Below, in pieces: positions 39,861-43,158 of a DNA stretch of 64,000 nucleotides; positions within the stretch are counted from its first letter, which is position 1, and each line of letters begins with the position of its first letter. A program made the position numbers and the translations under genes. Origin of the DNA: Aminobacterium sp. MB27-C1 (lineage in GTDB: Bacteria > Synergistota > Synergistia > Synergistales > Aminobacteriaceae); the NCBI RefSeq assembly GCF_030908405.1, contig NZ_CP133089.1:248001-312000 (forward strand), in the 5' to 3' direction. Under the pieces are notes generated by a model, which saw nothing but the letters and a program-made list of their open reading frames with translations, had not been told where the DNA came from and made no database searches.

Positions 39861-40880
39861 ATGAAAAGTGAAAAATGGTGGAGAAAAATATTGTTTATGT
39901 TTACGTTGTCAGTTGTTCTTTTTAATCTAGCTTCTTGTGGTTTTTCCACAGAAAGTCCTGTTATTTTCCTTGATTTTAGTTGGGAAAGTGTTCAAGTTCA
40001 TAACAGAATTGCAGCGTATATTATCGAAAAAGGTTTTGGACGGAGTGTAATTTATACGTTTGCGGAAGTTGTGCCTGGGCTTATGGGATTGGAACGAGGG
40101 GATGTTCATATTGCCATGGAAACTTGGGTAGACAATGCTGGTGAATTTTGGAAGAAAGCAGAGAAGCGCGGTAAGTTACGGTCTTTGGGGAAGAATTTTC
40201 CAGATGCTCCTCAAGGATGGTATGTTCCTACATATTTAATCAAGGGAGATCCAAATCGGGGAATTAAACCTATGGCACCGGATTTAAAAAGTGTAAAGGA
40301 TCTGTCTCGTTATTGGGAACTATTTCGAGACCCCGAAAATCCTCAAAAAGGACGTTTTTATAACGGACCAACTGGCTGGAACGTAAGCGTTACAAACGAG
40401 AAAAAAATGAAGTCCTATGGACTGAATTCCCGTTATACTGTTTTCTATTGTGGTTCGGCAAGCGCCCTTGCCACAGCTATTGCATCTGCATATGAAAAAG
40501 GGAAGCCTGTTCTTGCATACTATTGGGAGCCCACTCCTATCTTGGGAATGTATGATATGACGAAATTAGAAGAACCTCCTTATGATGAAAAAGTATGGAA
40601 TACATCTGGAGGATGTGACTTTCCTGCTTCAAGGGTTTTAAAGACTATAAACACGGTGTTTGCTGAGGAAAATCCGGAGATAGAAAATTTTCTTATAAAA
40701 TATGAGACGACTATGGGTGAGACAAACACCTTTTTAGCATATATGAAAAGAGAAAGTGCTTCTTCTTTTGAAGCGGCAGTTTGGTTTTTAAAGCATTATT
40801 CGGAACGTTGGCATCAATGGCTTGATGATCCTCTCGTGATCAAAAACGTAGAAGATGCGTTAAAAAATGAAAAAATATAA
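39861..40880 (+). CDS. Glycine betaine/carnitine/choline-type substrate-binding lipoprotein (OpuAC/ProX family)
   Basis: This is an extracytoplasmic binding protein for quaternary ammonium compounds, 339 residues. A hydrophobic leader ends in the lipobox LASC with C26 as lipidation site. Tryptophans typical of the aromatic cage occur in DFSWESVQVHN (about 44), METWVDNAG (about 87) and YYWEPTPI. No permease or ATPase genes adjoin it; the next gene instead encodes a choline/carnitine acyltransferase, with a 14-base overlap. That suggests the ligand is carnitine, choline or a relative that is then acylated or deacylated. It could also be a sensor component or serve a distant transporter. Confidence 0.85.
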   Translation: MKSEKWWRKILFMFTLSVVLFNLASCGFSTESPVIFLDFSWESVQVHNRIAAYIIEKGFGRSVIYTFAEVVPGLMGLERGDVHIAMETWVDNAGEFWKKAEKRGKLRSLGKNFPDAPQGWYVPTYLIKGDPNRGIKPMAPDLKSVKDLSRYWELFRDPENPQKGRFYNGPTGWNVSVTNEKKMKSYGLNSRYTVFYCGSASALATAIASAYEKGKPVLAYYWEPTPILGMYDMTKLEEPPYDEKVWNTSGGCDFPASRVLKTINTVFAEENPEIENFLIKYETTMGETNTFLAYMKRESASSFEAAVWFLKHYSERWHQWLDDPLVIKNVEDALKNEKI

Positions 40881-42657
40881 ATATTTTTGTTCGAAAGAGA
40901 GCCGCTTGCCGGCTCTTTCTTTTTCCGATTTAAATAAAACTTGTCAGTTGTTTTCCATGTGGAGCAAGCCGTTTCTCTCTTCTAATGAAATAGAAACGAC
41001 TCAAAAAGCGGTGAAAAATTTTTTGCAATCGCCAGAGAAGGGACCTTTTTTGCAAAAGATGCTAGAACAACGTTTGACCGAAGAAGAGTCTTTTCTTGAA
41101 AATCTCCCTTATTGGGAAAAATGGTATTTAAAAGCGAGAGATCCTTTGCCTATATACAGTAATCCTTATTATGTCTTCAACGATTCTTCAACTTCATATA
41201 GCTTATCTCTATGTGATAGGGCAGCGAAAAGTGTTGTTTCATTTTTGCGTTTTCGAGAAAACCTGTTGCAAAATCCAGAAATAGAATGGGATGAGCGAAA
41301 TCCTTTAAGTTTGGAACAATATAAAAATTTTTTTTCGACAACGAGAATTCCTGGACTCAATCAAGACTTTTTAAAATCACCTTGGAGCGCGAATGGAGAG
41401 GTTTCCACAAAAGAGTCTCATATTATTGTAATCTTTAAAGGTAATTTCTATAAGGTTGATGTTCTTTCTGATAAGGGAGACATTAGGGACACTAACGAAT
41501 TAAGTGGCGTTTTTTTATCTATTTTGCAGAGTTTCTTTGAAGGAGATGTGTCTACAGAAAGCATATCTTCTCCAGCACTTCTGACAACCCTTCCTAGAAC
41601 AGATTGGTTCTATTGGCGAAAACGGCTTTTGCAGGTTGATTCTCAAAATATTCATGCCATGAATATTTTGGAGAAAGCTCTTTTTGTTGTTTGCTTAGAA
41701 GATCATCCACTCTCTCACACAATGAATGTGTGCAGAAATGTTTGGCATGGAAAAGGAGGAGATCGATGGTTTGATAAATCTCTACAGTTAATTATTGGTC
41801 CAGGATATAGAGGGCTTTGTTTTGAACATTCAGGTTTGGATGGAGCTGCGGTCACTCGATTAGTTCGATGGGTTACTGAAGATGAAAAGGTTATCTTTCC
41901 ACGAGGAGTTATGATGGGAACACTGGCAAAAAAAGTTTCGTTTATTCTTGATTCCTCACTATGTAAAGCTATAGAAAAAGCTGCAGCACATTTTGACTCA
42001 ATGATAAAAGGAACGTCTTTAATCGTTAGAGATTTTCCTTCTTTTGGATTAGAGGATATAAAAAAGCATTCTCTTAGCACAGATGCTTTCGTTCAAGTGG
42101 CTATTCAATCAAGTTTTTTTAAGAGCTTTTCTTCTCTCCCTCATGTTTTTGAATCGGTTCATCTTCGTCACTTTCGAAAGGGACGAACAGACGGAATGCG
42201 CCCTGTTACAAAAGATTCGGTTCTCTTGGTTAAGGGAATGAGAGAAGGGTATAAGAAAGAAAATCTAAAAGAGTTGTTACAAAGAGTTTCTCAGTCTCAT
42301 CGAGAAAGAATTGCTATGTATATGAACGGTTATGGTCCGGAAGCTCATTTATCTTTGCTCTACGAAGTGTGGAAAGAAAATTCCAAGGATGGGAAAATAC
42401 CTGATATATTCCAATCCCCAGGCTGGTTACATTTTACTCAAAATGAAATTACCACAAGTACGACATTACCTACTGGTCTTAAAGCAGCAGGGTATGGGCC
42501 AGTAGAAGAGAAAGGCTTTGCGGTTCGTTATCTCAGGTATCCTCATTCTCTTCGGTTTAGTTTTTCATCTCGATGTAGCGAAGAGGTTCGTCTGAAGATT
42601 TTTATTGAAAATATGTTTTATTCCCTTGAGGAAATGATGACTTGGCAGGTATTCTAA
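40867..42657 (+). CDS. Choline/carnitine O-acyltransferase family protein
   Basis: This 596-residue protein matches the eukaryotic-type choline/carnitine acyltransferases, which move acyl groups between CoA and carnitine or choline. The signature DRWFDKSLQ precedes GLCFEHSGLDG, in which H321 aligns with the catalytic His of CrAT and ChAT. Further blocks are FRKGRTDGMRP (T441, R445), where animal enzymes read GRTDTIRS or GRVDNIRS, a TTSTTLP stretch in the STS-motif position, and YGPVEEKGFAVRYL near the end. The retained T441 leans toward carnitine, weakly. No signal peptide is seen, so it is cytoplasmic. It overlaps the binding-protein gene and has no clear ribosome-binding site, so it is probably translationally coupled. 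The family is uncommon in bacteria. Confidence 0.88.
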   Translation: MKKYKYFCSKESRLPALSFSDLNKTCQLFSMWSKPFLSSNEIETTQKAVKNFLQSPEKGPFLQKMLEQRLTEEESFLENLPYWEKWYLKARDPLPIYSNPYYVFNDSSTSYSLSLCDRAAKSVVSFLRFRENLLQNPEIEWDERNPLSLEQYKNFFSTTRIPGLNQDFLKSPWSANGEVSTKESHIIVIFKGNFYKVDVLSDKGDIRDTNELSGVFLSILQSFFEGDVSTESISSPALLTTLPRTDWFYWRKRLLQVDSQNIHAMNILEKALFVVCLEDHPLSHTMNVCRNVWHGKGGDRWFDKSLQLIIGPGYRGLCFEHSGLDGAAVTRLVRWVTEDEKVIFPRGVMMGTLAKKVSFILDSSLCKAIEKAAAHFDSMIKGTSLIVRDFPSFGLEDIKKHSLSTDAFVQVAIQSSFFKSFSSLPHVFESVHLRHFRKGRTDGMRPVTKDSVLLVKGMREGYKKENLKELLQRVSQSHRERIAMYMNGYGPEAHLSLLYEVWKENSKDGKIPDIFQSPGWLHFTQNEITTSTTLPTGLKAAGYGPVEEKGFAVRYLRYPHSLRFSFSSRCSEEVRLKIFIENMFYSLEEMMTWQVF

Positions 42658-42693: not shown

Positions 42694-43080
42694 GTGAGAA
42701 GAATAGTCTTATCAGTAATGCTCGTATGCAGTCTCTATATTTTTTCGACAGGGTCAGTTCTTTTTGCTTTGGAAGCGTCACAAAATGCTTCAGAGCTTAC
42801 CTTTGCTTTTTCTGATCAGGCACTGGCGTTTTTGCAGCGTTTGCCTCAACCTCTGTATCTTGATTGGGGATATTACAGAGGTATTTGAGGAGAAGATGCG
42901 TCGGCTCTCGTGAAGAGCCAAAAACCGATTGATCCAGAATCTTTCGTTCTCGTTTCCCATGGTGACGTTACGCTGTGGGTACGAAATAGTATGAAATTCA
43001 AAGATGATATTATTACTCTTGAATTACTAGAATTTCGAGGTAATAAAATTTTGATTAGTAAATCGGTCCTTTACGATTAA
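42694..43080 (+). CDS. Exported HesB-like protein with in-frame TGA: candidate selenoprotein
   Basis: A frame starting GTG 42694 (GGAGGG box upstream) reads 64 codons, meets TGA at 42886-42888 and stays open for 63 more codons to TAA at 43078. The first half has a signal-like hydrophobic segment (MRRIVLSVMLVCSLYIF...). The rest resembles a HesB/IscA-like fold: LTFAFSDQALAFLQRL, then LYLDWGYYRGI-TGA-GED, then a beta-rich end. The TGA falls where IscA/HesB proteins have their first conserved Cys (GGCxG). A hairpin at 42903-42919 begins 14 bases after TGA, as expected for a bacterial SECIS. HesB-like selenoproteins are known, but an exported one would be unusual. Alternatives are a nonsense mutation (TGG to TGA) or sequence error. 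Confidence 0.62.
42903..42919 (+). promoter_or_regulatory. SECIS-like hairpin downstream of the in-frame TGA
   Basis: GGCTCT (42903-42908) pairs perfectly with AGAGCC (42914-42919) around the loop CGTGA. The loop begins 20 bases after the TGA and has G at its second position, as described for bacterial selenocysteine insertion elements. A six-base stem can occur by chance, so this supports the selenoprotein reading without proving it. Confidence 0.5.
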
Positions 43081-43102: not shown

Positions 43103-43158
43103 TTCCGGTGTTTCCTTTGTGTAAAAGGAAACACCGGAATTTTGCTTTTTTCTTTTTC
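43103..43158 (+). terminator. Terminator ending the acyltransferase/HesB-like operon
   Basis: TTCCGGTGTTTCCTTT (43103-43118) pairs perfectly with 43124-43139 and is followed by T-rich sequence. It lies 22 bases after the TAA at 43078-43080, not after the TGA at 42886. The transcript therefore covers the whole interrupted gene. Confidence 0.92.

Follow-up and report, generated by a model that had tools for sequence, protein, structure and literature searches.

The window analyzed here is a stretch of 64,000 nucleotides from Aminobacterium sp. MB27-C1, the genome of which is one contig of 2,427,830 bases. The forward strand carries a reading frame that begins at a GTG, reaches a TGA at codon 65 in the context RGI-TGA-GED, and then continues through 63 sense codons to a TAA at 43078-43080 (Table 1). 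A perfect hairpin starts 14 nt 3' of this TGA. The first-pass annotation, made from the letters of the sequence, had proposed that the frame encodes an exported, HesB-like protein with selenocysteine (Sec) at residue 65. Its positions for the start codon, the TGA, the TAA, the hairpin, and the terminator are all exact on direct reading.

Table 1. Features of the candidate selenoprotein gene; positions are those of the window.
Feature	Position	Strand	Basis
SD-like GAGGAGGG upstream of the GTG start codon	42681..42688	+	Read in sequence; SD-like motifs precede many homologs
Candidate selenoprotein gene P0001, 128 residues, Sec at 65	42694..43080	+	Direct reading; TGA shared by homologs
Signal-peptide-like N-terminus, residues 1-25 (RR, then hydrophobic core)	42694..42768	+	Hydropathy/charge scan of 54 homologs; tree
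In-frame TGA, putative Sec codon	42886..42888	+	Relatives carry either TGA or Cys at the corresponding position
SECIS-like hairpin, 6-bp stem, loop CGTGA, G at loop position 2	42903..42919	+	Spacing and covariation
Hairpin stem, GGCTCT	42903..42908	+	Direct reading
Hairpin loop, CGTGA	42909..42913	+	Direct reading
Hairpin stem, AGAGCC	42914..42919	+	Direct reading
Intrinsic terminator, 16 pairs	43103..43139	+	22 nt past the stop codon

Conservation of the in-frame TGA

One explanation of the interrupted frame is that the TGA is a true stop, leaving a 64-residue peptide followed by the decayed remnant of a pseudogene. A standard gene caller does end the frame at 42888, and the same-genus genome G006 lacks the gene at the syntenic place, where a different gene lies and no remnant was seen; the selenoprotein gene is therefore accessory (dispensable). 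Other observations oppose a true stop. The read-through protein, searched against 83 genomes of the family, matched 17 loci in 16 genomes, and all 17 have exactly one in-frame TGA, an open downstream frame, and purifying selection. This selection is equally strong on both sides of the TGA, with pN/pS of 0.39 after and 0.43 before the codon when the window is compared with locus L018. In 183 Synergistales genomes, a profile search extends the pattern to 98 places, 87 with a TGA and 11 stop-free. Across the order, the interrupting codon is nearly always TGA and rarely TAA or TAG, and relatives may carry Cys at the same site. As these observations all speak against termination, a true stop is scarcely credible. 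The TGA occupies the homologous position in the 43 loci that were read at the DNA level, and widening the search to 392 relatives gave no match outside Synergistales.

The 11 stop-free forms identify the residue that replaces the TGA, which is Cys in 10 and Trp in one, the very distant L071. Where the earlier annotation had proposed looking for Cys or TGA at this site as opposed to Trp, Arg, or Gly, close relatives have TGA or Cys and never any of these three, with Trp confined to the remote L071. Cys forms occur in G077 and G078, neither of which has a selB match at the threshold used. In G108, two copies of the cytosolic form of the protein (described below), one with Cys and one with Sec, lie side by side in tandem (L068). 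Pattern scans of 84,980 genomes and of viral contigs gave no matches; these carry little information on Sec forms because the key site was back-translated as Cys and not as TGA.

As a separate observation, L021 and L027 are near-identical before the TGA (pS 0.02) and diverged after it (pS 0.49). This jump in divergence suggests recombination near the Sec codon.

The hairpin downstream of the TGA

The folding energy of the window hairpin is ordinary when taken alone (z = -0.94), and 27 of 200 shuffled sequences fold as well. Because the hairpin folds no better than many shuffles, the case for it must rest on comparison. The stem starts 14 nt after the TGA in 42 of the 43 loci and one codon later in the remaining one, L032. 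Over 41 distinct sequences, standard pairs fill 90.2% of pair cells; the figure is 79.3% in shuffled sequences, and in slid versions it does not exceed 49.7%. Double-sided changes are found in 35 cells against 9.3 expected, a value that none of 500 shuffles reaches, and the covariation is 0.399 as compared to 0.197 after shuffling. A single TGA locus, L060, pairs badly in this register, and it folds with a shorter loop. Located just 3' of the UGA, the window hairpin has a G within the first two positions of its loop; an Rfam search returned weak matches, no SECIS family being among them. The proposal that this is a SECIS-like element is borne out by the fixed spacing and the covariation across TGA loci.

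The Cys forms provide a useful reference for this element. In nine of the 10 (eight exported Cys forms and L069), the helix is disrupted, with 1 to 4 of 6 pairs. The tenth is L068a, the Cys copy that adjoins a Sec copy, and here all six positions are paired, as is expected of a recent change. The Leu codon is CTG in L068a and CTC in its Sec neighbor.

Selenocysteine machinery

The source genome contains selB (362 bits), a tRNA-Sec that scores above the gathering score (73 bits), selA (571 bits), which adjoins selB and has yedF alongside, and selD (331 bits), which has its own single in-frame TGA in the motif SGUAAKIG. All four of selA, selB, selC, and selD, on which the earlier reading depended, are thus present. 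With selB, tRNA-Sec, selA, and a TGA-bearing selD, the organism almost certainly decodes UGA as Sec. Among the other genomes searched, G056 has two selB genes above the cut-off in one genome (G056:C1:115089 and C2:296380).

These data bear upon a second alternative, in which suppression or a changed code allows the UGA to be read as Trp or Cys. The Trp of L071 would fit this reading. It is opposed by the use of TGA as the ordinary stop of 6 of the 46 frames of at least 200 codons in the window, by the use of Cys codons in G077 and G078, which are the genomes without a selB match, and by the combination of complete Sec machinery with a covarying hairpin at a fixed spacing, which fits SelB-dependent decoding. 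A Trp or Cys reading is accordingly given almost no weight.

Taken in aggregate, the TGA shared across genera and families, its spacing from a covarying hairpin, and the purifying selection that follows it are judged to be beyond chance. Decoding of the TGA at 42886 as Sec is very well supported by these alignments, and the proposed recoding of UGA is as firm as comparison alone can make it. The assignment of residue 65 as Sec therefore stands up to comparison in the conserved TGA/Cys site, the covarying hairpin, and the Sec machinery.

Relationship to known selenoprotein families

The only NCBIfam match of the window protein is NF041239, at 23.2 bits across residues 37-120, where the cut-off is 40. 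In the relatives, NF041239 is again the sole family match and again falls below cut-off, and a six-frame search with the NF041239 model did not list the window locus. This family appears as a CC/Se motif family (seleno)protein, a hypothetical selenoprotein of Moorella, in Table 1 of a 2026 review, in which the exported branch is absent (PMC13188914). Our literature search found NF041239 named in no other paper. The source genome also has another gene of this superfamily that contains a TGA, L034 (G000:C1:1793698-1793955, minus strand), the product of which is cytosolic, ends in a CGSCSCH tail, and is a true NF041239 member (43.5 bits). Compared by profile, the exported branch and the cytosolic set, which includes L034, match at 99.4% (E 1.4e-21), with Sec at the same column. 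In contrast to NF041239, the window protein has a signal-like N-terminus and lacks the Cys-rich tail, and its motif is RGIUGED with no Cys near U65, whereas that of NF041239 is CxxU (PMC13188914).

TIGR01911, the known HesB-like selenoprotein, resembles the window protein in being a selenoprotein built on an IscA/HesB-type domain. It differs in its motif, which is UxGP where the window protein has UGED, and the window protein is predicted to be exported. The TIGR01911 model matched neither the window protein nor any protein in 61 genomes including the source. Membership in TIGR01911 was rejected on the lack of a model match and the absence of UxGP.

These comparisons delineate what appears to be a Synergistales protein branch whose sampled members almost all use Sec and which current family models miss; the window gene itself goes unrecognized by NF041239. 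Detection methods that depend on Cys homologs can readily overlook a branch of this kind, where most members have Sec and Cys is exceptional. In the part of the deep-Sep study that covers Aminobacterium sp. MB27-C1, 13 known selenoproteins and 0 new genes are given (PMC12013277).

Predicted export and cysteine content

The exported and cytosolic sets were named from their sequences before 54 homologs were scanned by hydropathy and charge, which is not a trained signal-peptide predictor; the scan found a signal-like N-terminus in all of the exported set but in no Sec-bearing member of the cytosolic set. The trimmed Cys row L068a passed the scan threshold through an internal stretch only. On the tree, one branch with support of 98/91 separates 40 exported rows from 14 cytosolic rows. 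The signal-like N-terminus across homologs and this split on the tree both favor the export that had been suggested initially. The window protein is thus likely exported, with a predicted signal whose cleavage position is uncertain in this member.

The only Cys of the window protein is residue 12. As this lies inside the signal-like part, the predicted mature chain would contain one Sec and no Cys. A few other members likewise lack a partner Cys. Vicinal CU or UC is found in other exported members, namely L030, L031, L053, and L060, and L054-L056, L059, and L061-L063. Since some have CU and others UC, the partner Cys can lie on either side of the Sec.

Remote relationship to IscA

A profile of the whole family aligns with an IscA/ErpA profile (hhalign 92.8%, E 3.9e-7), placing the Sec on IscA Cys35. 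The real score was 43.6, whereas 150 column shuffles gave at most 17.6 and the reversed profile 12.2. The exported branch alone did not match the IscA profile (probability 1.2%), so the link to IscA depends on the cytosolic relatives, a Cys-rich tail being retained in several of them. No Pfam match to PF01521 (IscA/HesB) was obtained for the window protein or for the relatives tested, and no PF01521 protein was found in any of 41 Synergistales genomes. A PDB profile search placed IscA (1s98) at E 0.38, which is not significant alone, and a single-sequence structure model reached a pLDDT of 50.9, too poor for a fold search. The likeness to IscA/ErpA (PF01521) is therefore one of remote profile homology across the domain, with the Sec aligned to the first cluster Cys. 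The differences are that the window's branch lacks the C-terminal CxC ligands and has a signal-like N-terminus. We consider it quite probable, from these profiles, that the domain adopts an IscA-type fold. The initial description of the protein as HesB-like holds at the level of the profile superfamily, through the IscA profile match, and fails at the level of TIGR01911 or PF01521 membership.

Proposed function

Comparison supports a Sec site, a hairpin, Sec machinery, an exported clade, and remote IscA homology. With a probability of roughly 0.9, the window gene encodes a small exported selenoprotein of an IscA-linked, single-Sec kind. If so, production of the protein likely involves: reading of the UGA at 42886 by SelB and tRNA-Sec, with the adjacent 3' hairpin as a guide, yielding a precursor of 128 residues; and removal of a Sec-type signal peptide. 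The mature domain of ~100 residues would have an IscA/HesB-type fold, with Sec in place of the first cluster-binding Cys of IscA. The C-terminal CxC pair would have been lost, and the predicted mature chain of this member has no Cys.

One possibility would be that the protein is a working, exported A-type iron-sulfur carrier in which Sec replaces a cluster ligand, as the profile link to IscA and the placement of Sec on Cys35 could imply. IscA uses three Cys. The window's branch does not have the three ligands that include the C-terminal CxC, the predicted mature chain has no Cys at all, and no PF01521 protein was found in the 41 relatives searched, making this a distinctly improbable reading. 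Given the loss of CxC and the absence of Cys from the predicted mature chain, the window protein is probably not an iron-sulfur carrier.

For the exported single-Sec protein, the most likely role would lie in the cell envelope, either in single-selenol chemistry or in the binding of metal. Here, the single selenolate could act as a nucleophile or as a metal ligand, and either an external thiol could recycle it or subunits could share it. That the protein is a redox enzyme reducing peroxide or disulfide, and not a metal binder, has a little under even odds. Most uncharacterized selenoproteins are thought to have redox functions (PMC13188914), and the vicinal CU or UC of some members would be consistent with such a function. 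The lack of any thioredoxin-type family match argues against it, as does the lack of any partner Cys in the window protein and a few others. Assigning the Sec to redox chemistry or to metal binding is thus little better than choosing between the two.

A broader and rather speculative proposal, which we regard as unlikely, is that an IscA-derived domain moved out of the cytoplasm and was rebuilt on one selenolate, giving Synergistales an envelope protein that depends on Sec and handles metal, metalloid, or sulfur/selenium species. We know of no described counterpart for such a protein. Related genomes with Sec and Cys versions represent a natural test of the envelope protein's need for selenium.

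Gene neighborhood

The gene is flanked, in several genera, by a PD-(D/E)XK nuclease gene on one side and, on the other, by a HAD hydrolase gene followed by a DUF255 gene; iorA and iorB are sometimes directly downstream. Assignment of a function from these neighbors was rejected, as the nuclease, iorAB, HAD hydrolase, and DUF255 genes are of cytoplasmic type and variable. Between the nuclease and selenoprotein genes of the window, at a place where they were not seen in G007 or G006, positions 39861-42657 encode a glycine-betaine-type binding protein and a choline/carnitine acyltransferase (PF00755, 429 bits).
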